Origin: Gammaproteobacteria bacterium
GTDB lineage: Bacteria > Gemmatimonadota > Gemmatimonadetes > Longimicrobiales > Gaopeijiaceae
Assembly (NCBI GenBank): GCA_009840525.1
Contig: VXNP01000048.1
Coordinates: forward strand, 1 to 32,664
Direction: 5' to 3'
DNA: 32,664 nt
Shown here one piece after another: positions 2,143 through 23,674 of the stretch. Numbering within the stretch: position 1 is the first letter of the stretch; every line of letters begins with the position of its first letter. The notes under the pieces were generated by a model. It was not told where the DNA came from. It saw nothing but the letters and a program-made list of their open reading frames with translations, and made no database searches. A program made the translations under genes and the position numbers.

Positions 2143-2174
2143 TGTCGGTTACGCATGCGGCTATGTGTCGGTTA
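2143..2174 (+). repeat. Left part of 23-bp tandem repeat array, interrupted by the transposon
   Basis: A unit starting TGTCGGTTA occupies 2143-2165, and a second begins at 2166 and is broken at 2174/2175 by the transposon. It continues at 8545-8566, and a third unit begins at 8567 (TGTCGGTT). Removing the transposon and one copy of the duplication restores two full 23-bp units and part of a third. The units share TGTCGGTT and a terminal ATG; their middles differ. Confidence 0.75.
2167..2174. repeat. Left target-site duplication (GTCGGTTA)
   Basis: The 8 bases directly outside the left inverted repeat are GTCGGTTA and are repeated exactly at 8545-8552 outside the right inverted repeat. An 8-bp duplication is the length known for IS1595-family insertion. 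Confidence 0.92.
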
Positions 2175-2199
2175 GGGAATTATACGCCTAGCTTGATTT
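2175..2199 (+). repeat. Left terminal inverted repeat of the transposon
   Basis: 25 bp beginning GGGAATTATACG and ending CTTGATTT; it is the exact reverse complement of 8520-8544. It is the left transposase-recognition end. Confidence 0.93.
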
Positions 2200-2234
2200 C
2201 GGGTTCCATGCCGTAGCGGCTCCCGCATGCTAAT

Positions 2235-2271
2235 TTTGATGTCCGGGGGAGCCGGGCCCCCCCTCATCAAA
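2235..2271. other. GC-rich hairpin near the left transposon end
   Basis: TTTGATG (2235-2241) pairs with CATCAAA (2265-2271), and the inner GGGGG (2245-2249) can pair with the run of C at 2257-2263. It lies 17 bp upstream of the possible start at 2289 and downstream of the leftward cluster. No U-tract follows on either strand, so it is not a classical terminator. It could limit read-through across the end or act in the leader of the 2289 frame. Confidence 0.5.
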
Positions 2272-2288
2272 CCTTCGGGAGGGAAGAT

Positions 2289-2489
2289 ATGGCAATCAAC
2301 GGAAACACGACAGGCAAGATCGAGGCGAGCTGGTGGCAAGGCGGGTTGTTCCTGGCACCGGCCACCCGCGAGCAGGCTGACGCCTTGGAAGTGCTGCGTC
2401 GAGACCTAAAGCTTGTTGGGGTCGTAGAGGAGATTCATGCTGGCCCAGCCGCTTCCGTCCAAACAGGTGACAAGCAACCGGTCGCCTGA
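2289..2489 (+). CDS. Possible small protein at left end of transposon, unknown function
   Basis: A 66-aa frame starting MAINGNTTGKIEASWW. In its favour is a very good ribosome-binding site, GGGAGG, six bases before the ATG, and a plausible protein-like first half (WWQGGLFLAPATREQADALE). Against it, the last 28 codons lie antisense to the 3' end of the Cas2-like gene, and no family is recognised. If real it would be the only rightward gene at this end of the element, convergent with the leftward cluster and overlapping it by 84 bp. Confidence 0.4.
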   Translation: MAINGNTTGKIEASWWQGGLFLAPATREQADALEVLRRDLKLVGVVEEIHAGPAASVQTGDKQPVA

Positions 2490-2663
2490 TTCCATGTATT
2501 GCCAGAAGTGATCTCGCAACGCCACCGCCGTGGTGTTGTGGCGACGAAGGCACCACTGCGATCTTAGCAGACGTTTGGCACCTGCTTGTCGGAGCGCATC
2601 CCAAAGCGATTCGTAGTCTTCGCTCGTTCCGTTTACCAGGTCGTAGCTGATGACGTATCTCAT
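2406..2663 (-). CDS. Orphan Cas2/SinR-like small protein
   Basis: 85 aa beginning MRYVISYDLVNG. A hydrophobic first strand ending in YDL, with Asp at position 8, is the hallmark of the Cas2/VapD-like ferredoxin fold. The LWDALRQAGAKRLLRSQW helix-strand, the SGDRLLVTCLDGSGWASMN segment and the total length match the SinR-like branch of the Cas2 superfamily, which occurs outside CRISPR loci. Cas2 of adaptation modules is a structural dimer that binds DNA with Cas1; VapD and SinR-like members may be nucleases or toxins. No cas1, other cas gene or CRISPR array is visible here. The ATG has GGGAAGA upstream. It is the last gene of the leftward cluster, separated by 160 bp from the previous one, so it may have its own promoter. 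Confidence 0.7.
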   Translation of the reverse strand: MRYVISYDLVNGTSEDYESLWDALRQAGAKRLLRSQWCLRRHNTTAVALRDHFWQYMESGDRLLVTCLDGSGWASMNLLYDPNKL

Positions 2664-2823
2664 GCCGGTCTTCCCGTACGTTGGGTTAAGGGGTTTGTGA
2701 CAACCCTGAAGCCTAACGCCGGGACGGTCAGACGGCCAGAGCCAGAAGGCCGAGGCGGCGTCACCCTCCGGTTTTCCTCATTTCCACACCGTTTTCACCA
2801 TTCTCCGGCTTCTGCTCGCCCCA

Positions 2824-3078
2824 TCAGATCAGCCCCCGGTCGTCAAGCGACGTGAACACGTGGTCCACACGTTCCTTCACGTCCTTCAAGTCGGCATCTA
2901 TCCGGTCGAGGTGATCGCCGATCTCGGCGAAGCCCCTTTCCATATCCTTGCGGATGCCGGAGAGTTGCCCGTTCAGCTTTGCGGCCACTGCGTCCGTCAT
3001 CCGCTGAACCAGCCGATCATCGGTGGCGAGCCGGTCCGTCACCGCCTCCGCGAATTGTGCGATCTGTTCGTTGCTCAT
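2824..3078 (-). CDS. Small coiled-coil protein, paralogue of the gene at 4052-4240
   Basis: 84 aa, starting MSNEQIAQFAEAVTDRL. It is mostly predicted helix. Residues from about 40 onwards (GIRKDMERGFAEIGDHLDRI, then DADLKDVKERVDHVF) show heptad spacing of I, L, F and V, suggesting a coiled coil. The N-terminal half (EAVTDRLATDD, DAVAAKLNGQLSGIR) matches DAVADRLETSD and DAVAAKLGGQLHEIR in the gene at 4052-4240, so the two are diverged copies. Start: ATG with AGGAAG upstream. No signal peptide, membrane segment or known domain is visible; the function is unknown. It is part of the leftward small-gene run. Confidence 0.7.
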   Translation of the reverse strand: MSNEQIAQFAEAVTDRLATDDRLVQRMTDAVAAKLNGQLSGIRKDMERGFAEIGDHLDRIDADLKDVKERVDHVFTSLDDRGLI

Positions 3079-3142
3079 TGCTGTCTTCCTTTGCTCGTGA
3101 GTTGAAGTTTGGTGCGGAGATATGCCATTCCCCGGTCGCCCT

Positions 3143-3304
3143 TCACCCCTTCTTCTCCCAACGCTCCGCCAGCTTGTCCCGCACCTTCGGCTTGACGAGC
3201 GCGCGCACGACGTCGCTCGCCATAGCGCCCTGGTAGCGCGGGTTGACGGCCCGGAAATCCGGCACCGTTTGCGGGTCGCGGGTCACCTTCTTCGTCTCGC
3301 TCAT
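3143..3304 (-). CDS. Small basic protein, unknown function
   Basis: 53 aa from MSETKKVTRDPQTV to ERWEKKG. The ATG overlaps the TGA of the upstream gene (ATGA at 3301-3304), and GGAGAAGAAG, inside the end of that gene, serves as ribosome-binding site, so translation is probably coupled. A longer frame reaching to 3400 exists but would run through the upstream gene in another frame and is not preferred. The NPRYQGAMASDVVRALVK segment looks like a compact helical motif, and the protein ends in a charged tail. No known family is recognised. Confidence 0.68.
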   Translation of the reverse strand: MSETKKVTRDPQTVPDFRAVNPRYQGAMASDVVRALVKPKVRDKLAERWEKKG

Positions 3305-3492
3305 GCGGCTTCTTCTCCTTCGAGCTTCGTCACTCGCTTGTCCAGATCGTCTTGATCCTTCACGACGGTGGCGAGCAGCACCGTGATCTTCGGCACCCAC
3401 TCATCGAGCAGTTTCTCGATGTTTCCCAGCCTTGCGAGCACGAGCTTGCGAAAATCCTGCTCCCCCACGTGTCCGCTGTTCGGCTTGCTCAT
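3301..3492 (-). CDS. Small coiled-coil protein, unknown function
   Basis: 63 aa starting MSKPNSGHVGEQDF. Residues 14-60 (KLVLARLGNIEKLLDEW, then VPKITVLLATVVKDQDDL and DKRVTKLEGEE) have regular hydrophobic spacing consistent with a coiled coil, with no charged-to-hydrophobic membrane pattern. AAGGAG lies nine bases before the ATG. Its stop overlaps the start of the following 53-aa gene, and it lies 12 bp after the 3505 gene, so it belongs to the tight leftward run. Function unknown. Confidence 0.7.
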   Translation of the reverse strand: MSKPNSGHVGEQDFRKLVLARLGNIEKLLDEWVPKITVLLATVVKDQDDLDKRVTKLEGEEAA

Positions 3493-3504
3493 GCGGCTGA
3501 CTCC

Positions 3505-3771
3505 TTAGTTGGTTGTTGTCGGTTTCGGGAATCCGAGCATCTCGCTGTCGATCACGGCCCCATCGTTAGCGCGCGGTATGATGTAGGCCGCTATCGACTC
3601 CCGGTTGTCGGCGTAATGCTTGTTCATGATTCTGATCGCGTTCCGCGTGATCTTGTACCGCCGGCATATCGGGCAGTTGTACTCGAACACGTCCCACCTG
3701 ATTCCACCGTCTTCGGCCTTCGCATGAGAGTACCGCCGCTTTGCCCCGCGGCGTTCAGGCAGACTTGGCAT
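3505..3771 (-). CDS. Small CxxC protein, unknown function
   Basis: 88 aa from the ATG at 3771 (MPSLPERRGAKRRYSHAK); GTG codons at 3786 and 3789 would add five or six residues and cannot be excluded. The N-terminus is very basic. WDVFEYNCPICRRYKITRN contains one CxxC knuckle of the kind seen at the start of zinc ribbons (CPxCxxYxIT), but no second CxxC follows, so zinc would need other ligands or a partner molecule. The C-terminal half (MNKHYADNRESIAAYIIP) is mixed helix and strand. It lies between two coiled-coil genes with gaps of 12-30 bp. Function unknown. Confidence 0.62.
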   Translation of the reverse strand: MPSLPERRGAKRRYSHAKAEDGGIRWDVFEYNCPICRRYKITRNAIRIMNKHYADNRESIAAYIIPRANDGAVIDSEMLGFPKPTTTN

Positions 3772-3802
3772 GTGGCCATCCGTCACCACGTCCTGAGCAA
3801 CA

Positions 3803-4036
3803 TCACAATGATTGTGAGGTTGGAGCGCCCTTCTTCACCTTCACCAACCGCTTCTTGACGCCCTTCGCGATGTGTGATTCAACGCCCGGAACGGTGCCGG
3901 GGAAATGCTCCGACATGAAGATGAGCGCGTCCCACATCCCATCGATTTTCCCTTCGATGTCGTCAAGCTGGTCGTGGACGGGATCCAGTGCTGTGTCGAT
4001 TTCTTCTCGGACGATCCTTCGGACGATTCCCAGCAT
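3803..4036 (-). CDS. Small helical protein with basic tail, unknown function
   Basis: 77 aa starting MLGIVRRIVREEIDTALDP. Residues 1-45 (DQLDDIEGKIDGMWDALIF) look like a long amphipathic helix or coiled coil. The C-terminus is strongly basic (KGVKKRLVKVKKG). The ATG is preceded by GGAG at a spacing of eight bases. The gaps to both neighbours are about 15 and 13-31 bp. A palindrome TCACAATGATTGTGA covers the stop codon (3803-3817). No family recognised. Confidence 0.65.
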   Translation of the reverse strand: MLGIVRRIVREEIDTALDPVHDQLDDIEGKIDGMWDALIFMSEHFPGTVPGVESHIAKGVKKRLVKVKKGAPTSQSL

Positions 4037-4051
4037 CGCGCTAGCTCCGGG

Positions 4052-4240
4052 TTACAGTGTTTTCCCCGACAAGGCATCCAGTCGCTCGGCAAGCTCCTTC
4101 ATCTGGTAGCTGATCCCCAAGAGCTGCCCCCGAATTTCGTGAAGCTGACCGCCTAGCTTCGCCGCCACCGCGTCCGCCAGCAAATCGCTCGTCTCCAGAC
4201 GGTCCGCCACCGCGTCAGCTAATCCTGTCGGTTTGCCCAA
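4052..4240 (-). CDS. Small coiled-coil protein, paralogue of the gene at 2824-3078
   Basis: 62 aa if translation starts at TTG 4240; an in-frame GTG about 11 codons later has AGGA upstream and could be the true start. The protein repeats the DAVADRLETSD and ADAVAAKLGGQL pattern of the 84-aa protein at 2824-3078, then has its own short coiled coil (ISYQMKELAERLDALSGK). Duplication within one operon suggests subunits of one complex or successive rounds of cargo change, but that is inference. Gaps of 18 and 15 bp separate it from its neighbours. Function unknown. Confidence 0.6.
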   Translation of the reverse strand: MGKPTGLADAVADRLETSDLLADAVAAKLGGQLHEIRGQLLGISYQMKELAERLDALSGKTL

Positions 4241-4258
4241 CGTGATCCGGTCTCGAGA

Positions 4259-4468
4259 TCATTTCATCCCTGTGAACCGTAGCCGAATCTCGTTGCCGTT
4301 TGTTTCGAGCTTGACGCTCTGCTCGATCTCATCACCAAGCTCGATGCAGATCAAGCAGGTGCTATCAACCGTCATGTAGGTTTCCCGATCACCGGACATG
4401 ACCGATATCCTCACCGTTCCGGTGGCTGGTTCTTCCTGACGCTTCCTCCATCTTCCACCGATCTTCAT
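4259..4468 (-). CDS. Small beta-rich protein, unknown function
   Basis: 69 aa from the ATG at 4468 (MKIGGRWRKRQEEP); a TTG at 4519 would give 17 more residues. After a basic start, the protein alternates short strands (TVRISVMSG, ETYMTVDSTCLICIELG, QSVKLETNGNEIRLRF) and has one CxxC (CLIC). This differs from the helical proteins that follow. It is the first gene of the tight run reading towards the left end; the tRNA-like gene lies about 165 bp upstream. I do not recognise a family. Confidence 0.6.
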   Translation of the reverse strand: MKIGGRWRKRQEEPATGTVRISVMSGDRETYMTVDSTCLICIELGDEIEQSVKLETNGNEIRLRFTGMK

Positions 4469-4633
4469 GCTCCGAACAAGACGTTTTCCGGGATCAGGCC
4501 GATGTGTTTTCAGCGGCAAAACTCTGCCTGCACAGAATTTGCGGGATCCGGGCCAAATGCGCTAGGGTCTGGTTCAGGCGCTTGCCGGGGGGTTCTTGTC
4601 ACGCCTTCCACTAACCTGCTAGCTTCTGAAAAG

Positions 4634-4704
4634 AGTGCCGACCCGGATTCGAACCGGGAATCGCTCCTTGCGGGGAAGCTGCCTTACCGTTTGGCTACCG
4701 GCAC
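4634..4704 (-). tRNA. tRNA-like gene, CGC at the anticodon position, isotype uncertain
   Basis: A 71-nt cloverleaf on the minus strand. Acceptor GTGCCGG pairs with TCGGCAC, with one G-U at the inner end. The D arm is GCC...GGC with a GG in the loop, the anticodon stem GCTTC/GGAGC has one G-U, the variable loop is four bases and the T arm is CCCGG-TTCGAAT-CCGGG. The loop is CCCGCAA, which puts CGC (4670-4672) at positions 34-36, formally alanine. However, position 33 is C instead of the nearly universal U, the G3-U70 pair of tRNA-Ala is absent, and the discriminator is U, as in Cys or Gly tRNAs. No CCA is encoded. The body looks most like tRNA-Cys or Gln. It may be a repurposed or decaying tRNA. 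Confidence 0.75.
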
Positions 4705-4709
4705 TCGAC

Positions 4710-4737
4710 GAGCCACCGGGCCCTAACCCGGTGGCTC
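4710..4737. terminator. 11-bp perfect hairpin just upstream of the tRNA-like gene
   Basis: GAGCCACCGGG (4710-4720) and CCCGGTGGCTC (4727-4737) enclose the loop CCCTAA. On the plus strand it is followed by CCTTTCTTG, a weak T-rich stretch; on the minus strand it ends five bases before the tRNA-like 5' end. It may separate the upstream leftward transcript from the tRNA or mark a processing site. It is not a typical intrinsic terminator. Confidence 0.45.
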
Positions 4738-4805
4738 CCTTTCTTGTCCCCAATCTACTCGCGCCGTCGCGTGGCGGTCGCGGGATGACCGCCTCCGCTG
4801 TTACC

Positions 4806-4913
4806 TTACCCAAAGGTCGAAGGGGGCGAAGCGAGCTTGATGGAATGCACCGTCCACACGATGCCAAGCTGCTTCTCCCCCTTCTGCCCCTCCCCGGCCA
4901 CCAGCCGGATCAT
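4806..4913 (-). CDS. Possible 35-aa protein after the zinc-knuckle gene
   Basis: Short frame MIRLVAGEGQKGEKQL to SIKLASPPSTFG. It starts 17 bp after the stop of the zinc-knuckle gene on the same strand and ends before the hairpin. The sequence is protein-like (QLGIVWTVHSIKL) but no convincing ribosome-binding site precedes it, and a longer frame covers the same codons up to 5060 antisense to nothing but inside the upstream gene. Treat as tentative; no family recognised. Confidence 0.3.
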   Translation of the reverse strand: MIRLVAGEGQKGEKQLGIVWTVHSIKLASPPSTFG

Positions 4914-4930
4914 CAGGCGCTGACAGCAAC

Positions 4931-5362
4931 CTAACACCCGCAGCGCGTCCCGACGAGCCCCCCAGGCCGGTACGTGCCGTTCTTGATCGCGCACTCGCGG
5001 CATGGCTCTTGGGGTGAGCACCGGCTGTTCCGGTGGCCGAAGCGGATCATGCCGTCCCACCTGCCGAGCCTGCGGTCATCCAGCGGGGTCAGGCTCTTGC
5101 CCTTTCGCCGCTGGTTGTAGTGGCCCGTGCAGAGCCCCCGCGCCCTGACCGGCTTCGAGCACCCGTCGAAGCTGCACTCCTTCTCCGCGTGGGGGTCATA
5201 GGGACGGAGAGGTCTCCGCAACCGCTCGCCACGGTCTCCGCGAAGCCATCGCTGGTTGTGGGCGGAACACATCCGCCTGCTCCGCGAGCCGTGCTTCGTG
5301 ACTTCCTTGCCGCAGCCGGGAATCCGACAGGCGATCACCCGCGCCACTTGGCGCGTTTTCAT
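4931..5362 (-). CDS. Cys/His zinc-knuckle protein, phage or homing-endonuclease style
   Basis: 143 aa from the ATG at 5362, chosen because GGAGG lies seven bases upstream; a frame reaching 5479 lacks such a site. Two similar modules have the pattern C-x4-C-x(9-14)-C-x2-H: C12, C17, C32, H35 and C63, C68, C78, H81 (CSFDGCSKPVRARGLCTGHY). A third Cys cluster follows (C115, C121, C124, C141, C143). Such modules are common in small phage and HNH-associated DNA-binding proteins, but no HNH catalytic motif is present here. The linkers are very basic, consistent with nucleic-acid binding. It is the first leftward cargo gene, divergent from the M8 peptidase. DNA binding is inference. Confidence 0.72.
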   Translation of the reverse strand: MKTRQVARVIACRIPGCGKEVTKHGSRSRRMCSAHNQRWLRGDRGERLRRPLRPYDPHAEKECSFDGCSKPVRARGLCTGHYNQRRKGKSLTPLDDRRLGRWDGMIRFGHRNSRCSPQEPCRECAIKNGTYRPGGLVGTRCGC

Positions 5363-5411
5363 GGCATCCTCCGGGGGTTGCGTTTTCCCGAACCTACCCC
5401 ATATGCTTCGG

Positions 5412-5567
5412 GTTGCAAGCTTGGACGCACAGGTGGCCGACTTCTCCGAGTCGGGTCGCCTGTCGAATACAACAGCCACGACACGAGACAGGGTTAGCTA
5501 CCCGGCGCTCTCGGGGCGAATAGACAGGGGCACACCGCCTTTTCTCCTGTGCGGACAAGCTTGCAAC
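5412..5567. promoter_or_regulatory. Divergent control region with a 12-bp separated inverted repeat
   Basis: GTTGCAAGCTTG at 5412-5423 is the exact reverse complement of CAAGCTTGCAAC at 5556-5567, with 132 bp between the arms. The region separates the leftward zinc-knuckle gene (start 5362) from the rightward peptidase gene (start 5620) and contains no gene. The arms could bind one regulator or pair in the peptidase leader RNA. No promoter boxes are clear enough to place. Confidence 0.45.
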
Positions 5568-5615
5568 GGCCCGGCCACGGGCCCACCGCAAGCAACGTTC
5601 GGAAAACAGGAGAAA
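5541..5615 (+). promoter_or_regulatory. Leader able to sequester the peptidase ribosome-binding site
   Basis: TTTCTCCTGT (5541-5550) is the exact complement of ACAGGAGAAA (5606-5615), which is the Shine-Dalgarno site of the gene starting at 5620. If both lie in the mRNA, they can form a 10-bp stem that hides the site. A competing pairing is possible through 5556-5567 with 5412-5423. Confidence 0.4.
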
Positions 5616-5619
5616 CGTC

Positions 5620-6738
5620 ATGACCCCGCGCCGCTTGGCACCAGCGGCTCCCGCACTGCTCGCGCTCGCGTCTGGCTGCGTGTCTGACCCGGCGCGAGTG
5701 GACGAGACGGTGGGAGTGTCGGTTCGGGAGGCGGAGGTTGGGGATACGTCGTCTGCGGGCTGGACGTGGGAGAAGGAGCCGTACCGGATCGAAGTCGAGT
5801 ACAGGTACGAGGATTGGCCGGGCGAGCGCGTCCGGCGCATCATCGAGGAGTCGGCGGATGCGTGGCAGCGCATCTTGGCGGACACGTACCTGGGGCCGTC
5901 CGAGTGCGAGCCGTACCTGAACGGACTCGTCGTCGAAATCGCGCTCGTGCAGGATGTCCTGCTCCTGCCGACCGGGCTCGGCGTCGCGCAGGTCGTGTGT
6001 CCGCCGATCCGGCCCGGTCGCGGGCTCGGCTGGAACGAGCTGCCGCGCCATAGCCGCGTCGGGCTCCAGCCCGACATCGCCGACAAGATCGAGCAATGGT
6101 CGGAGGCGTTCGTACGCGCCATCGTCGTGCACGAGTTCGGACACGCGCTCGGTCTAGGCCCGGTAACCGACCCGGCCATGTATCCGCCGCCCGACAGCCT
6201 GATCGGCGGCGAGCGCGTGTACCGCTACGAGTGCGAGTACGCGGTCCCGTCAGGCGAGATCCGGCGCATGGTGCCGTGGGGCTTCAACGAGCGCGACTTC
6301 CCCGCCGCCGTCGCCGACTACGAACGGCTCGACGGGCTGACCGAGGGCTTCGTGCCCGGCGGGCGCGAGGGGCACACGCACCCGAGCCTCGGCGGCATCA
6401 TGGGCACGAGCCCGCAGTTCTCTAGCAACGTGCGCATGAAGCGCGAGCCGCAGCCGACGAGCGTCAGCGCGGCGCTGCTCGCGGGCATCGGCTACAGCGT
6501 TGACACGACCGGCGTGCTCGACACGCGCATCATCCCGAACCCGTTCGGCGACACCGGCTGGCAGGCCGCTTGGCGCATCGCCAGAAACGCCGAGCGCGAG
6601 AACTCATACTGCGGACACTTCGCTTGGGACGACCCCGACTTCGACCCCTATGTCGGCGGCATCATCAGGACCGTGCCCCATCCAAACCCCGCAATCGGAC
6701 ACGTCAACGTCGTCGCCCAACTCATACGCAACTGGTGA
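5620..6738 (+). CDS. Leishmanolysin-like (M8-type) zinc metallopeptidase lipoprotein, transposon cargo
   Basis: 372 aa. The N-terminus (RRLAPAAPALLALASGC) is a lipoprotein signal with lipobox Cys20, so export and membrane anchoring are expected. The catalytic motif VVHEFGHALGLG places zinc ligands H171 and H175 and the base E172. The usual metzincin third His is absent at +6, as in M8 peptidases, where it comes after an insertion: H252 or H254 in GHTHPSLGGIMG, followed by Met261 as a likely Met-turn. SVSAALLAGIGYSVD matches the conserved C-terminal part of that family. Ribosome-binding site AGGAGA. The protein is clearly related to residues about 360-560 of the chromosomal lipoprotein at 21767-23674, but lacks its Ig-like region. 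Substrate unknown. A second lipoprotein gene follows after 37 bp. Confidence 0.82.
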   Translation: MTPRRLAPAAPALLALASGCVSDPARVDETVGVSVREAEVGDTSSAGWTWEKEPYRIEVEYRYEDWPGERVRRIIEESADAWQRILADTYLGPSECEPYLNGLVVEIALVQDVLLLPTGLGVAQVVCPPIRPGRGLGWNELPRHSRVGLQPDIADKIEQWSEAFVRAIVVHEFGHALGLGPVTDPAMYPPPDSLIGGERVYRYECEYAVPSGEIRRMVPWGFNERDFPAAVADYERLDGLTEGFVPGGREGHTHPSLGGIMGTSPQFSSNVRMKREPQPTSVSAALLAGIGYSVDTTGVLDTRIIPNPFGDTGWQAAWRIARNAERENSYCGHFAWDDPDFDPYVGGIIRTVPHPNPAIGHVNVVAQLIRNW

Positions 6739-6775
6739 GAACACACCCTCGCAAGAATTTACGGAGAAAACAGCC

Positions 6776-7174
6776 ATGCGTTTCACCGCCCTCGCTTCCA
6801 TCGTTCTCGCCGCTTGCTTCATCCCCTCGCCGTCACAAGAAGCCGAGACAGCACCCGCCGCACAGCCATCCGACAACTGCGATGTGCTGCGAAGCGTGTT
6901 CATGCTGGCTTCGCTCAAGAGCGGCCAGAGCCTCACTCGCTCGGAGGTTTGGAACGCATCACCGCTCTACGCGGGCGTGGAGAACAGCGATGACCCCGAG
7001 TTTCTCCAGGAAGCGATAGACCAGATCGACGAGCGATTGGCCGATCTCACGAGGTCCGAGGACCTGCTCATTTCGGTCAACGATGCCTATACGGAATCGT
7101 GCCCGGAGGAAGCCAAGCTCGTGCATGAAATCATGCGAGAGGTCGTGGTTGACACATCCGCGCCATCCCGGTAG
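6776..7174 (+). CDS. Small lipoprotein, unknown function, partner of the M8 peptidase gene
   Basis: 132 aa from the ATG at 6776, which is preceded by ACGGAG. MRFTALASIVLAACF is a lipoprotein signal with lipobox LAAC (Cys14). The mature part is helical and acidic (DQIDERLADLTRSEDL), with Cys residues in DNCDVL and ESCPEE that could form a disulfide. No known domain is visible. The 37-bp gap to the peptidase gene and shared export suggest joint transcription and possibly a partner, inhibitor or activator role; that is inference from position only. Confidence 0.72.
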   Translation: MRFTALASIVLAACFIPSPSQEAETAPAAQPSDNCDVLRSVFMLASLKSGQSLTRSEVWNASPLYAGVENSDDPEFLQEAIDQIDERLADLTRSEDLLISVNDAYTESCPEEAKLVHEIMREVVVDTSAPSR

Positions 7175-7194
7175 CGTGTTTCCACTCACATGCG

Positions 7195-7356
7195 TTAGGC
7201 CGTCATCCCGACTCCGCTACGCCATGCCCGCCGCAGCTTGGTGAGCAACATGTCGTGCTTCCGAATCGGCGCACTCTTGGCTTCAGCGCGTTGCCGGTCC
7301 TTTCGGCACCGTGGGGGGCTTGCCGTACTCTCGCAGGGCTGGTAGTATTCAGACAT
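7195..7356 (-). CDS. Small basic protein beside the transposase, unknown function
   Basis: 53 aa starting MSEYYQPCESTASPPRCRK and ending in AWRSGVGMTA. AAAGGGG lies six bases upstream of the ATG. The middle (RQRAEAKSAPIRKHDMLL) is rich in Arg and Lys, suggesting nucleic-acid binding. It is convergent with the small lipoprotein gene, with a 20-bp gap, and downstream of the transposase on the same strand. The frame is too short for confident assignment, but start, site and composition agree. No family recognised. Confidence 0.5.
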   Translation of the reverse strand: MSEYYQPCESTASPPRCRKDRQRAEAKSAPIRKHDMLLTKLRRAWRSGVGMTA

Positions 7357-7368
7357 AATGGCCCCTTT

Positions 7369-7385
7369 CCCGCCTCGCTAGCGGG
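7369..7385. other. Short hairpin in the leader of the 53-aa gene
   Basis: CCCGC (7369-7373) and GCGGG (7381-7385) can pair. On the minus strand it lies just upstream of the ribosome-binding site of the gene at 7195-7356; on the plus strand it is followed by GGGCTTGTTGTT. It may add to the terminator that follows on the plus strand. Confidence 0.35.
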
Positions 7386-7398
7386 GGCTTGTTGTTCG

Positions 7399-7437
7399 GA
7401 GACCCGACGGTTGCCGCCGTCGGGTCTCACCGTTTTT
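7399..7437 (+). terminator. Intrinsic terminator
   Basis: A 12-bp perfect stem, GAGACCCGACGG (7399-7410) and CCGTCGGGTCTC (7417-7428), has a six-base loop and is followed by ACCGTTTTT on the plus strand. It would stop rightward transcripts of the lipoprotein pair before the transposase gene. The stem could also act on leftward transcripts, but no U-tract follows there. Confidence 0.78.
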
Positions 7438-7475
7438 GCTGTCTCCTGAATCTAACCTGCTGGCGTGATTCGACG

Positions 7476-8465
7476 CTAGCGCGCCATCGCCGACCGCCCG
7501 TTGTCGGCGATCAGGTCCCGGTACATGAGCCGCTGCCCGACCATCGCCGCGACCACGTGCTGCATCTGCGCGAGCGTGTCCATCTCGCGCACGTTCTGAC
7601 GGCCCGCCATCATGTTGATGTAGGCCTGAAGGTGCTTCGGGCTCAGGCGATGGTAGACGCCCTTGTGGGAGCGCTTGAGCATGCTCCAGAAGGATTCCAC
7701 GCCGTTCGTGTGGATCGTCTCGCCAGCCAGGTAGCGGACGTATTCCTGCGCGCTGTGCTTGACCGACTTGCGCTCGTTCGGGAGCCCCTTGTACGCGCTG
7801 GTGTCATCCGTGTAGACCTTGGTATCGTCCTTCACATGCCCCTGCACGAAGCCCTGTAGCGTCTTGCTGTCCGTCGAATCGACGACCTTTGCGGCAACCT
7901 TCTTCGTGACGCGATCCTTGATCCCGACAACCGCCGTCTTGCCGACCGGGCCGCGACCAGCCTTCAGCTTCTTCTTCTCATGCTTGTTCTTCTCGAGCCC
8001 GCCCACGTAGGTCTCGTCAACCTCAACCGGGCCATCGAAGACGAGCTTGACGCCGTTGAACGCATGGCGGATGCGGTGGAGCATGAACCACGCGGAGGCC
8101 TGCCGGATGCCGAGATCGCGGTGCAGCTTCATGCTCGACACGCCCTTCAGGTTCGTCAGCTCGAGGTAGATCGCCCAGCCCCAAAGCCGGAGCGGGAGCT
8201 TCGATGCGCCCATCGCCGTGTTCGTGCGGAGGGAGAAGTACTGCTTGCAATCGCGGCAGCGATACGGCATCGGCTTCGCATTCCTGACGCGGTAGGCGTC
8301 CAGGCTCCCGCACTTCAGGCACGCGATCTCGCCGTCGGGCCAGAGCCACGCCTCAAACCACTTGATCGCCTTCGCTTCCGTGGCGAACATGTTCGCGATC
8401 TCCGGCATCGAGATGCCCTTCCGATGCGCCTTGCCCGGTCCCTTGACCTTGGCTACCTTCTCCAT
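7476..8465 (-). CDS. IS1595/ISXO2-type transposase
   Basis: 329 aa. It cuts and joins the transposon ends. The ATG at 8465 is chosen because GGGGAG lies upstream; a GTG at 8513 would add 16 residues. The N-terminal zinc ribbon has C49-x2-C52 and C70-x2-C73 (CLKCGS, CRDCKQYF). The DDE-type core has D150 in VEVDETYVGG, D220 or D221 in VYTDDTSAYKG and HTNGVESFW, in which E257 (or N254) supplies the third catalytic position. These are the landmarks of ISXO2-like enzymes. The frame is open and full length, so the enzyme is probably active. It reads away from the right inverted repeat, about 55 bp inside it. Confidence 0.95.
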   Translation of the reverse strand: MEKVAKVKGPGKAHRKGISMPEIANMFATEAKAIKWFEAWLWPDGEIACLKCGSLDAYRVRNAKPMPYRCRDCKQYFSLRTNTAMGASKLPLRLWGWAIYLELTNLKGVSSMKLHRDLGIRQASAWFMLHRIRHAFNGVKLVFDGPVEVDETYVGGLEKNKHEKKKLKAGRGPVGKTAVVGIKDRVTKKVAAKVVDSTDSKTLQGFVQGHVKDDTKVYTDDTSAYKGLPNERKSVKHSAQEYVRYLAGETIHTNGVESFWSMLKRSHKGVYHRLSPKHLQAYINMMAGRQNVREMDTLAQMQHVVAAMVGQRLMYRDLIADNGRSAMAR

Positions 8466-8519
8466 GTCGTTCTCCCCGTTGACTTTCCCGTACATGAAAT
8501 CTAACGGGATCACCGGGGA

Positions 8520-8544
8520 AAATCAAGCTAGGCGTATAATTCCC
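8520..8544 (-). repeat. Right terminal inverted repeat of the transposon
   Basis: Exact reverse complement of 2175-2199, over 25 bp; the next base inward differs. It is the right transposase-recognition end and may include or adjoin the transposase promoter. Confidence 0.93.
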
Positions 8545-8552
8545 GTCGGTTA
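8545..8552. repeat. Right target-site duplication (GTCGGTTA)
   Basis: Identical to 2167-2174 and directly outside the right inverted repeat. It is followed by the rest of the interrupted 23-bp repeat unit (to 8566) and the beginning of another (8567). Confidence 0.92.
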
Positions 8553-16217: not shown

Positions 16218-16370
16218 GCGGGCCAGGTTCATCCGCGGAAGCGGCTGGAACCCGATTTGAGCGAGACCCCCGGTCACGACTCCGGCAACGGCGGGTTGGC
16301 GAGACAGGCTGCGGATTGGACGAGATCAGCTGGGGGCTTGAGTATCGTCTGTCTGACCCCTCTGTGGCGT

Positions 16371-16392
16371 GTTGCAAAACACAAAATGCAAC
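16371..16392. promoter_or_regulatory. Palindromic operator 1 upstream of the XRE/ImmA-like gene
   Basis: A 22-bp inverted repeat: GTTGCA, a ten-base spacer, TGCAAC. The second copy follows after five bases. The position between the P450 stop and the regulator start suggests binding by the XRE protein. Confidence 0.6.
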
Positions 16393-16397
16393 AATAT

Positions 16398-16419
16398 GTT
16401 GCCTTTTCGATTTGGCAAC
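16398..16419. promoter_or_regulatory. Palindromic operator 2 upstream of the XRE/ImmA-like gene
   Basis: A 22-bp inverted repeat: GTTGCC, a ten-base spacer, GGCAAC. It has the same outer GTTGC/GCAAC arms and spacing as operator 1. The centres are 27 bp apart, allowing cooperative binding of two dimers. Confidence 0.6.
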
Positions 16420-16583
16420 ACTCTGCAGACGGGCCCGCTGCACAAGAGAAAGCAGCACGGCACCGGCGGCGGATCGGCTGCTTCGGACCCGGCTACAACC
16501 AGTCCTGGCTTGGCTACAGCCAGCCGGCGGCCAACGGGTCCGGGTTGCCCAACATTCCCCGTTCTCCAGGCCCAAGCATCCGA

Positions 16584-17822
16584 ATGCGACCAACTGTCCG
16601 GATTCCCCGCCTGACCTCCCGGATTGCCGCCCGTCTGAGGGCGGCCCGCAAACGAGCCGGGCTGACGCAGTATCAACTGGCGGGAGACCTGGGGCTCAAC
16701 CATCGCCAGGACGTCACCCGCATCGAAGATGGGCAACGCTCCCTCACCGCACAGCAGCTCATCCTGGCGATGGACCTTCTCGGCGTCGATCTGGACTACT
16801 TCACCGACCCGTTCCGCCTGGAGGGTGAAGGGGAATTCACGTTCCGGACGGGTCCGGAGGTGGCGAGCGCGGCCGTCGACGAATTCGAGCGCAGAGCAGG
16901 GGGATGGATCGCGATGTACCGGGAGTTGTCCCGGGAGCTGGGACGCGAGCCTCGATGGCTTGAACTGAAGCTCTCGCTGACGCGCCACTCCTCCTTCAGT
17001 GACGCGCGGGACGCGGGTGCGGCGTTCTCCGAGCGCATGGAACTCGGAGATTGCCCAGCGGCGGCGCTACGGTCGGTGCTGGAAGACCGTCTGGGGATTC
17101 TGGTGCTCGAGGTGGATGCCCCACCCGGAATCGCGAGTGCCGCTGTCCGCGCTCAAGGAATCAAGTGCGTGCTCGTCAACCACCATGAGCCCGAGGGGCA
17201 TCGGAACTACGGCATGGCGCACGGACTGTTCCGCCTCTTGACCTGGGATGCAATCCCGCCCGCCCGAGTGGAATCCGTTCGCCTGCCGCGCCGCGGGAAG
17301 CGATGGCTGGTTGCGCGAGTAGCCGAGAGCTTTGCCACCGCGCTGCTGATGCCCTGGCCCGTTCTGCGGCGGCAGTTGGGATTCGAGCGGGCGCGGGAAG
17401 GCGTCGTGAGCCCGGGAGAGCCGATGCGCATGACCGCAGAGGACATGATCGCACAGGACAGGGGTGAGCGGGAGTGGAGTCGCGTGACGCGATCGCGCGA
17501 TCTCCCCGCTCGTTTGATCGAGGGTGCCGCGCAACTCCGGGTCCCGGTGGAGGTGTACGTGCGCCGCCTCCGCCGCCTCTACCTGCTGTCCCGAGAGCAA
17601 GTCGACGCGCTCGCTGACCGGCTTCCGATCGCGAGTGGTGCGGCGCCGGACAGGGAAGCGGCGATTCCTACGTTCAGTGCGGAATTCGTCCGGTGTGTCG
17701 CCGATGCCCTCGACGCGGGGAATCTCTCCGTGAGGCGAGCCGCCTCCGTGCTGGATCTATCGCTTCCGGAACTGGCATCGCTGCTCACGCGCTACGGTCA
17801 CGAGGCCGATTTCGAGCCGTAG
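16584..17822 (+). CDS. XRE-type regulator with degenerate ImmA/IrrE-like domain
   Basis: 412 aa from the ATG at 16584. The frame is open from 16257, but that part covers the two operators, so it is unlikely to be coding; no strong ribosome-binding site is seen. Residues 15-68 are an XRE helix-turn-helix (RKRAGLTQYQLAGDLGLN, then VTRIEDGQRSLT). Residues about 100-280 resemble ImmA/IrrE metallopeptidases (LGILVLEVD, IKCVLVNHHE, NYGMAHGLFRLLTWD). The expected zinc motif HELFH reads H213-G-L-F-R217, so both the glutamate and the second histidine are lost. The C-terminal part has two predicted helical repeats (VEVYVRRLRRLYLLS; VRRAASVLDLSLPELA). It probably represses its own promoter; the role of the dead protease is unknown. 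Confidence 0.8.
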   Translation: MRPTVRIPRLTSRIAARLRAARKRAGLTQYQLAGDLGLNHRQDVTRIEDGQRSLTAQQLILAMDLLGVDLDYFTDPFRLEGEGEFTFRTGPEVASAAVDEFERRAGGWIAMYRELSRELGREPRWLELKLSLTRHSSFSDARDAGAAFSERMELGDCPAAALRSVLEDRLGILVLEVDAPPGIASAAVRAQGIKCVLVNHHEPEGHRNYGMAHGLFRLLTWDAIPPARVESVRLPRRGKRWLVARVAESFATALLMPWPVLRRQLGFERAREGVVSPGEPMRMTAEDMIAQDRGEREWSRVTRSRDLPARLIEGAAQLRVPVEVYVRRLRRLYLLSREQVDALADRLPIASGAAPDREAAIPTFSAEFVRCVADALDAGNLSVRRAASVLDLSLPELASLLTRYGHEADFEP

Positions 17823-21766: not shown

Positions 21767-23674
21767 GTGAGAACGACTCTCCGAATCCTCGCCGGCGCCC
21801 TGTTGATGGCTGGTTGCGGCGACGAGACGAGCGCCCCCGACCCGACAAGTCCGCCGACCCCCGATCCGCCACGGCCGGCGACCATCACGGTGAGTCCATC
21901 CACGGCAAGCCTGGACGCCATTGGGGCCAGCGTTCCGTTGAACGCCGCTGTGACTGATCAGAACGGGAATGCGATGGGGCAGGCGCCGGTAACGTGGTCC
22001 AGCAGTGCGCCCAATGTTGCCGCCGTGAGCAGCACGGGGCTCGTCACCGCGGTCGCGAACGGAAGTGCGACGATAACTGCCACGAGCGGGAGCGCACAGG
22101 GTCTGGCGGAGGTCGTCGTAGCACAGGATGCGGCAGCAATCTCGATCGACAGGTTTGCCTATGATGACTATCCGAGTGACCTCGTCGAGTTGGCCGAAGA
22201 TACTGTTGAACTATGGAATATATTGACGCTTGGCGCTACGGTTCACGACAAAGAGGGTCATGAGATGATCCAGCCCATCGAATGGCGGCTGCTGGATTCG
22301 ATCGCGTTTCCCAATGCCGCGGGCCTCACCACCAACGTCGAAGCATGGGCGCCGCGTGGTTATGAGGGCTCTCGTGTGTACCTGAATACCGGGAACAACA
22401 GGCCGGACGATCCGATTTGGGCGCGACTGGTGGCGACGACGGTTCGTGCTTCCGACTCGGTAACGCTTGCCGACACGGTGGTGGTTCTCGTCCTCGCCGA
22501 TCTGGGCTTTATCGAGAGCAGGCGCCGGAGTCTGGATCTTCCCGTCCATGTCGATGTCGGCGGCACGGTGCAGATCGATCTGCGCGGATGGTACGAGAGT
22601 CCTCGCGGGTTGCCGGTAACCTATGAGGTAGCCGTGACTTCGAGCCCGGGCCAGCCACCCGGCCCGGAAGACGTCGCAGAGATCGAGGTGCGCGAGGCCG
22701 GGTTGTTGACCGTCACCGGGCTGGCAGACGGGGTTGCGGGTCTTGTGTTCGCTGTTCGAACCGAGCTTGAGTACGTGGGCAGTTTCTGGCCCGGCGCCCT
22801 GTATGTCGGGGACATCCGGTGTCCCGCTACAGGTGTGCCGCGCGCGCCGCGCGATGCACCGTTCCGCGTCGAGCTCGACTATGCCGATGAACTCTCTCCT
22901 TGCGTGCGGTCCGTCATTGACGGAGCAGTTGGATGGTGGGAACGCGCTTTGGCGGACAACAATCTCTCCGATTCCGAGTCCTGCGGGGTTGCAGCCGGCA
23001 CGCTGGCGGTGAGCGTCGAGACCCGTTTCCAGGAACTGGGTGGGCACTTGGCCGGTGCAACCCCACTTTGTTCGGACGAGATCACCCGTGAAGGATGGAT
23101 GGAACTCTCGGAACAGATGTTCCTGGGGCAGAAGAGGGATCCGAGGTTCCACTCACCGAACATCGGGCTCATGTACGAAGTTGTTCGGCACGAAATCGGC
23201 CACATACTGGGGATGGGCGCCGGTAGTGCGGCATGGGACGGGCTCGTCCAGGATCTCGCCTTCCAGGGACGCAACGCCGTAGCGGCCTTCCTGGACCTTG
23301 GCGGACAAGGGGCGGAGATCCCTCTGGAGGACGACGGTCAACGCTCCCATTGGTCCGAGGCCGAGATGGGTGGCGAACTGATGTCGCCGCGTATCGGAGT
23401 CTCGGAGCGCCCGCCCTTGTCGGCCATCACCCTCGGAGCCCTGGCTGATCTCGGGTGGGTGGTCGACATGTCGGTTGCCGAGGACTACACGGTCGGCGCA
23501 GCCCATGCCAGCGTCTATGCCGACGGGGAGGACTCGGACGACAACTGCCTCATCGACATCCACGGTTCGACCCCGACGCCCGCTGCCGGCCCCGCGCGGC
23601 TTTGGGAGCTTCCCTACCCCCCGTCGCAAGGGTGCGCGCCGAGGCCAGTCAGCTGGCGTTCATGGAGGCGCTGA
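21767..23674 (+). CDS. M8-type (leishmanolysin-like) metallopeptidase lipoprotein with Ig-like domain
   Basis: 635 aa from GTG at 21767, with GGAG upstream. The signal ends in LLMAGC (lipobox Cys17). A proline-rich linker is followed by a BIG2 Ig-like domain at about residues 40-118 (TITVSPSTASLDAIGASVPL, then VTWSSSAPNVAAVSSTGLVT). The peptidase part, from about 360, has HEIGHILGMG with H475, E476 and H479. The third zinc ligand is probably H528 in SHWSEAEMGGELMSP, with Met-turn M539, and LSAITLGALADLGWVVD follows, as in leishmanolysin relatives. It is homologous to the transposon peptidase at 5620-6738. The last 30 residues look unlike a domain and might be affected by a frameshift. It is convergent with the outer-membrane-like gene, with a 14-bp gap. 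Confidence 0.88.
   Translation: MRTTLRILAGALLMAGCGDETSAPDPTSPPTPDPPRPATITVSPSTASLDAIGASVPLNAAVTDQNGNAMGQAPVTWSSSAPNVAAVSSTGLVTAVANGSATITATSGSAQGLAEVVVAQDAAAISIDRFAYDDYPSDLVELAEDTVELWNILTLGATVHDKEGHEMIQPIEWRLLDSIAFPNAAGLTTNVEAWAPRGYEGSRVYLNTGNNRPDDPIWARLVATTVRASDSVTLADTVVVLVLADLGFIESRRRSLDLPVHVDVGGTVQIDLRGWYESPRGLPVTYEVAVTSSPGQPPGPEDVAEIEVREAGLLTVTGLADGVAGLVFAVRTELEYVGSFWPGALYVGDIRCPATGVPRAPRDAPFRVELDYADELSPCVRSVIDGAVGWWERALADNNLSDSESCGVAAGTLAVSVETRFQELGGHLAGATPLCSDEITREGWMELSEQMFLGQKRDPRFHSPNIGLMYEVVRHEIGHILGMGAGSAAWDGLVQDLAFQGRNAVAAFLDLGGQGAEIPLEDDGQRSHWSEAEMGGELMSPRIGVSERPPLSAITLGALADLGWVVDMSVAEDYTVGAAHASVYADGEDSDDNCLIDIHGSTPTPAAGPARLWELPYPPSQGCAPRPVSWRSWRR

Follow-up and report, generated by a model that had tools for sequence, protein, structure and literature searches.

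A predicted metzincin-type lipoprotein peptidase with a structured leader RNA as cargo of an IS1595-family transposon in Gemmatimonadota

The window (the whole stretch of DNA that was analysed, 32,664 nucleotides) contains a complete IS1595-family transposon whose passengers include a lipoprotein peptidase gene, preceded by a structured leader RNA and followed by a gene for a small exported protein (Table 1). A transposon had already been assumed in a sequence-only reading of this DNA, and it is real and bigger than that reading implied, with terminal repeats that were located through homology to a second element. The transposase matches PF12762 (2e-37, 128.8 bits, cut-off 27) and PF12760 (6e-7, 29.7 bits, cut-off 25.4), and its combination of an IS1595 zinc ribbon with an ISXO2-like DDE catalytic domain, together with terminal inverted repeats of about 25 bp and an 8-bp target-site duplication, places the element in the IS1595 family. 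Described members of this family have 25-bp repeats and 8-bp duplications and include the passenger-bearing elements tISCpe8 and MTnSag1 (PMC5704250), which the window element resembles in all of these traits. In contrast to those two, the Gemmatimonadota elements carry leader-RNA-preceded lipoproteins or, in relatives of the window element, apparent DNA methyltransferases as passengers, and no mobilisation or antibiotic-resistance gene was recognised in them. Sister genomes contain short contiguous matches that span the joined flanks of the element, at a junction that is itself repeated sequence, and no clean empty site for the whole window locus was found in sister species.

Table 1 Features of the transposon, its cargo and the chromosomal lipoprotein gene of the window.
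Feature	Position	Strand	Basis or remark
Left copy of 8-bp target-site duplication, GTCGGTTA	2167-2174	.	identical to 8545-8552
Complete IS1595-family transposon, 6370 bp	2175-8544	.	bounded by perfect 25-bp inverted repeats, flanked by 8-bp duplication; encodes IS1595 transposase
Left terminal inverted repeat, GGGAATTATACGCCTAGCTTGATTT, 25 bp	2175-2199	+	
tRNA-Ala(CGC)-like gene in element	4633-4704	-	ARAGORN; Rfam tRNA 51 bits
Small Cys-rich (zinc-finger-like) cargo ORF	4931-5362	-	zinc-finger match weak, under cut-off
Structured leader RNA	5412-5567	+	P1 arms 5412-5433 and 5546-5567; conserved core 5450-5530; covariance models, covariation
Pseudoknot strand, GUCGGGUC	5450-5457	+	8/8 pairs with 5568-5575
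Pseudoknot partner, GGCCCGGC	5568-5575	+	also within alternative hairpin 5568-5583
Ribosome-binding site, AGGAG	5608-5612	+	7 nt 5' of cargo ATG
Cargo lipoprotein, metzincin-type (M8-like) zinc peptidase, 372 aa	5620-6738	+	lipobox; zinc motif HEFGHALGLG; match to family HMM; fold prediction
Small exported partner protein, 132 aa	6776-7174	+	homologue at equivalent place in C75 element
IS1595-family transposase	7476-8513	-	first listed start; ATG at 8466 likelier
Right terminal inverted repeat, 25 bp	8520-8544	-	
Right copy of 8-bp target-site duplication, GTCGGTTA	8545-8552	.	
Chromosomal lipoprotein	21767-23674	+	lipobox, Big_2 domain, M8-like peptidase domain (residues ~365-577)

Both open reading frames that the sequence-only reading had compared, the cargo gene and a chromosomal lipoprotein gene of the same window, are present where it had placed them. 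Signal peptides with the lipobox cysteine of bacterial lipoproteins were found in the forms LASGC (cargo, residue 16), LMAGC (chromosomal, residue 13) and LALAC. At its putative active site, the cargo protein has an HExxHxxG motif with a distant third His and a Met-turn; H171, E172, H175, G178 and H252 are invariant among 32 relatives, with M263 nearly so. Structurally, the predicted fold of the cargo protein (mean pLDDT 58, the core being better, from an alignment made of relatives) best matched leishmanolysin (1lml, Z 13.8 over 213 residues), followed by matrix metalloproteinases with Z up to 9.9. The earlier label "M8" did not survive at the Pfam cut-off, since PF01457 was not listed for the cargo protein and reached 16.7 bits for the chromosomal one (cut-off 21). 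Judged from sequence and model, the cargo protein is best described as a predicted metzincin-type, M8-like lipoprotein and not as a member of M8: it shares with leishmanolysin and other metzincins the zinc motif and the later His and Met, and it differs from leishmanolysin in being a bacterial lipoprotein with a short, degenerate third-His region. An upstream scan for sigma-70 promoters found none.

Another complete element of 4417 bp lies elsewhere in this genome (contig C75, L004 5972-10388), with 31-bp perfect repeats and a perfect flanking 8-bp duplication (CCAGCAGA); it is inserted near the start of a radical-SAM-type gene, which it interrupts. The transposases of the two elements are 53% identical, and the C75 cargo is a lipoprotein of the same peptidase family whose N-terminus resembles that of the window cargo (58% over residues 5-54). 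Each element also encodes a version of the small partner protein, the two being 31% identical with a conserved CPEEA segment, and no further homologue was found among 395 genomes of the phylum at E<1e-3, one marginal match aside. The pairing of homologous peptidase and partner in both elements indicates that this module has been carried at least twice, by diverged elements. Small inhibitors, the potempins, adjoin secreted peptidases in Tannerella, and the window shows a similar arrangement, in which the gene of a predicted exported metzincin precedes that of a small exported protein; the predicted fold of the window partner is of low confidence and has no match, and no link by sequence was found for it.

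Perfect 8-bp duplications likewise flank nine other elements of this kind, which lie in the same genome, in the same genus and in two more distant genomes; their payloads, as judged from translations, include several lipoproteins and apparent DNA methyltransferases, the latter replacing lipoproteins at L029 4974-6560, L036 2510-3828 and L037 978-2606. A peptidase sequence at L032 was considered as a third cargo peptidase and rejected, since it belongs to the 3' part of a gene that lies just outside that element; the element itself (L032 3102-7220, with terminal repeats and without a target duplication) abuts the 3' part (7278-7724) of this chromosomal M8-like peptidase gene. At L040 7029-8825 (minus strand), an apparent AAA/OLD-type nuclease gene lies 3' of a leader-RNA lipoprotein gene, beside an IS1595 transposase. 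Among the smaller passengers, an ORF with an AVNPRYKG/AVNPRYQG motif recurs in three elements (window 3143-3400, minus strand; L030 10206-10409; L032 6138-6323), and small coiled-coil-like ORFs of the window (2824-3078, 3803-4036 and 4052-4240, all on the minus strand) have counterparts in L004, L035 and L036. The tRNA-Ala-like gene of the window element has C at position 33 in place of the usual U, and no tRNA was found within the other related elements scanned. A search for defence genes across the cargo ORFs gave no match. Elsewhere in the window, the protein encoded at positions 16257-17822 has a helix-turn-helix and matches IrrE/M78-like peptidases weakly, under the cut-off.

Most interesting at this locus, and not mentioned in the sequence-only reading of the two peptidases, are the leader RNA and the fact that IS1595 transposons carry it. 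The RNA consists of a long variable stem (P1), a conserved core with the consensus GuCGGGnnnCCnGCcGAAUAcaAnAGCc...GGguaGCuccC...GGcGAAuAgGcnGG, a GAAUACAA/GAAUA loop and a covarying pseudoknot. Across 81 distinct leader sequences, nine of the nine scored pairs change on both sides and 96.6% of cells are paired (0 of 500 shuffles), in an alignment that was fitted to the covariance model and therefore favours structure. The outer stem P1 is mostly unrelated in sequence among copies, and 84% pair strongly with their own partner versus 10% with a swapped one. The pseudoknot joins GUCGGGYY at the start of the core to RRCCCGRC just 3' of P1, with 8/8 pairs in 74 of 80 copies and several pair types, as in the covarying variants GUCGGGUC/GACCCGAC, GCCGGGCC/GGCCCGGC and UUCGGGCC/GGCCCGAA. 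The window copy folds with a z-score of −6.4 against shuffles, and the 3' strand of its pseudoknot can alternatively form a hairpin, GGCCCG-GCCA-CGGGCC (5568-5583), a competition that would permit a switch between the two structures. Covariation thus backs a conserved secondary structure. The window copy has no match in Rfam 15 (E up to 5); across 18 leader loci, Rfam 15 returned unrelated tRNAs and matches under the gathering score only. In the literature, we found no description of this leader RNA, nor of M8-like peptidases on IS1595 elements. The folded core, the pseudoknot, the competing hairpin and the site just 5' of the ribosome-binding site recall riboswitches and other 5' leader RNAs, whereas the missing Rfam 15 match, the association with genes for lipoproteins and other exported proteins and not with one pathway, and the transport on transposons set this RNA apart from them.

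A first covariance model, built from five transposon-associated copies (window, L004, L030, L035 and L040), matched 33 sequences, its five founders included, across 18 of the 118 related genomes searched. A second, built from 32 sequences, raised the count to about 85, spread over 34 of the 395 Gemmatimonadota genomes and within five genera only. Among 83 usable copies, the gene 3' of the leader reads as a lipoprotein gene in 40 cases, and in 11 more its product would be some other protein with a signal peptide or membrane segment (51 in total), versus three lipoproteins and three other exported or membrane proteins (6 of 82) on the divergent side under the same procedure. In some of the leader-preceded chromosomal proteins, Ig-like or leucine-rich repeats occur together with matches to M66-type or reprolysin-like metallopeptidases (one over the Pfam cut-off, the others under); another has a collagen-like repeat fused to a trypsin-like peptidase. 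Since the leader lies mostly before genes for exported proteins, the cargo peptidase fits a broader class of leader-preceded exported proteins. Divergent pairs of leader RNAs, a few hundred bases apart, were also seen at L237 3665-4309, L235 92-545 and L245 11121-11838.

Homology between the cargo and chromosomal peptidases, the central claim of the sequence-only reading, was borne out. Besides the lipobox, both proteins have the zinc motif (HEFGHALGLG, cargo 171; HEIGHILGMG, chromosomal 475) and the final xxGxxVD (GIGYSVD, cargo 289; DLGWVVD, chromosomal 561); the AD..L..SE segment is likewise shared (ADTYLGPSE, cargo 87; ADNNLSDSE, chromosomal 396) but lies about 80 residues N-terminal of HExxH and does not adjoin it, and the third-His/Met region is present in both (GHTHPSLGGIMG, cargo 251; SHWSEAEMGGELM, chromosomal 527), in degenerate form in the cargo protein. 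Compared directly by BLASTP, the two are 28% identical over 127 aa, with E 1e-7 for a single comparison. Against an HMM of the family built from chromosomal relatives only, with cargo sequences excluded to guard against circularity, the cargo protein scored 27.6 bits (E ~1e-5 for 100,000 sequences), versus at most 3.3 bits in 600 shuffles, and the alignment covers 130 residues, N-terminal of HExxH and across it. Convergence on the short zinc-binding motif alone would agree with the failure to reach the Pfam M8 and M10 cut-offs, but an HMM score so far above the shuffles, an alignment of this span and the predicted fold match to leishmanolysin make it extremely improbable, and as judged from the sequences the homology is real but deep. 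Evolutionarily, the chromosomal family is large and widespread in Gemmatimonadota and also occurs in Bacteroidota, Planctomycetota, Actinomycetota, Deinococcota and Pseudomonadota; all detectable relatives of the cargo peptidase within the phylum are chromosomal lipoproteins, and no close relatives were found in plasmids, phages, viral contigs or 84,980 species genomes. The phylogeny that had been proposed as a check places both cargo proteins on very long branches in maximum-likelihood trees (3.75-3.87 changes per site for the end branch of the window cargo); the C75 cargo groups with the window chromosomal peptidase and its relatives (support 99/97, five rows), and the window cargo has no firm sister. 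That the element recently captured the peptidase gene of its host or of a near relative, with divergence afterwards, would suit two lipoproteins of the same genome with the same domain, and by AU tests a grouping of the window cargo with its chromosomal neighbour and the neighbour's orthologue is not rejected (p 0.28), nor is one that unites both cargo proteins (p 0.23). We nevertheless hold such a capture to be very unlikely, given the low identity and the very long cargo branch, a neighbour that has a 91-92% identical orthologue in a sister species, carries a Big_2 domain and has no leader RNA, and a C75 cargo that scores 81.0 bits against the chromosomal family, far above the window cargo. 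With no firm sister, very long branches and AU tests that reject neither clade, recent capture of the neighbour is not supported, and the chromosomal peptidase is a distant relative of the cargo peptidase and most likely not its recent source. What stands of the proposal that the element picked up its gene from a host of this kind is a wider origin: the relatives within the phylum, the leader RNA, the two peptidase-partner modules and the differing similarities of blocks within the elements make it likely, if not proven by the tree, that the cargo peptidase came from the gene pool of these bacteria.

The makeup of the elements and of the leader loci bears on how such genes may move. The leader RNA is present in both the window and C75 elements, whose cargo genes are alike upstream, and elements whose mature proteins are unrelated still share signal-peptide DNA at 87-91% identity; for the window cargo, the identity reaches 91% over 45 bp with an unrelated lipoprotein in a sister-species element, which also shares a 374-bp cargo block (window 4971-5344) at 85.6% identity, versus 71% for the transposase DNA. 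Genome G085 has three copies, 95-97% identical, of a block that spans the leader, the ribosome-binding site and the first codons (about 255 bp), and their payloads differ. Such alike leader and signal-peptide blocks with differing payloads point to an exchange of payloads behind a conserved leader. Near-identical leader and signal-peptide blocks with different payloads lie at three places in one genome, L203 7990-8072 and L210 2688-2770 and 6198-6280. The repeated 255-bp blocks, and an IS1595-type transposase within 22 of 79 fetched leader loci (28%), although 14 leader-bearing genomes hold about three transposase matches each, would also suit a flow in the opposite direction, with leader-RNA lipoprotein genes being primarily transposon genes and the chromosomal ones remnants of past insertions; this is unlikely, since most leader copies have neither transposase nor terminal repeats nearby within the fetched sequence, some of whose contigs are short, and closure by terminal repeats plus duplications was seen for only five copies. 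Alternatively, the near-identical blocks could mean that the structured sequence works at the level of DNA, serving as a site of recombination or insertion for payload swaps in the manner of integron attC, and not as a regulatory RNA. To this we give little credence, because the sequence has one orientation, just 5' of ribosome-binding sites, and because a variable outermost stem around a conserved core, the use of G-U pairs and a covarying pseudoknot form the pattern of a folded RNA.

We posit that, although most leader copies show no transposase nearby, the cargo peptidase is probably one payload of a recurrent leader-RNA and export passenger module moved by IS1595 transposons in this group of Gemmatimonadota, with the leader controlling expression and the chromosomal neighbour being a distant relative. 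In this module, the structured leader RNA would be followed by a ribosome-binding site, the signal peptide of a lipoprotein and an exported payload that varies, which in the window would be the metzincin-type zinc peptidase and then its small exported partner. The terminal repeats and target duplications suggest that the transposase moves the whole unit, and the lipobox and motifs that its product undergoes export and lipidation and has protein targets beyond the cytoplasm. The leader RNA would control the downstream gene, probably through the pseudoknot and the competing hairpin near the ribosome-binding site. More tentatively, and with somewhat less conviction than doubt, we suggest that this is a new class of leader RNA, specific to a few Gemmatimonadota genera, which controls lipoproteins of the cell surface, including several peptidases, and which IS1595 transposons have spread as a plug-in expression-and-export cassette, its payload being swapped behind the conserved leader and signal peptide.

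Transposon passenger genes are usually regarded as bare genes. In the elements described here, the passenger repeatedly comes with a folded leader RNA and an export signal of its own, and this leader recurs before unrelated exported payloads. The finding adds a pseudoknotted RNA family missing from Rfam, with about 85 examples for studies of ligand and mechanism, and leader-bearing transposons offer a testable route by which the mostly uncultured Gemmatimonadota may gain and diversify surface proteins.
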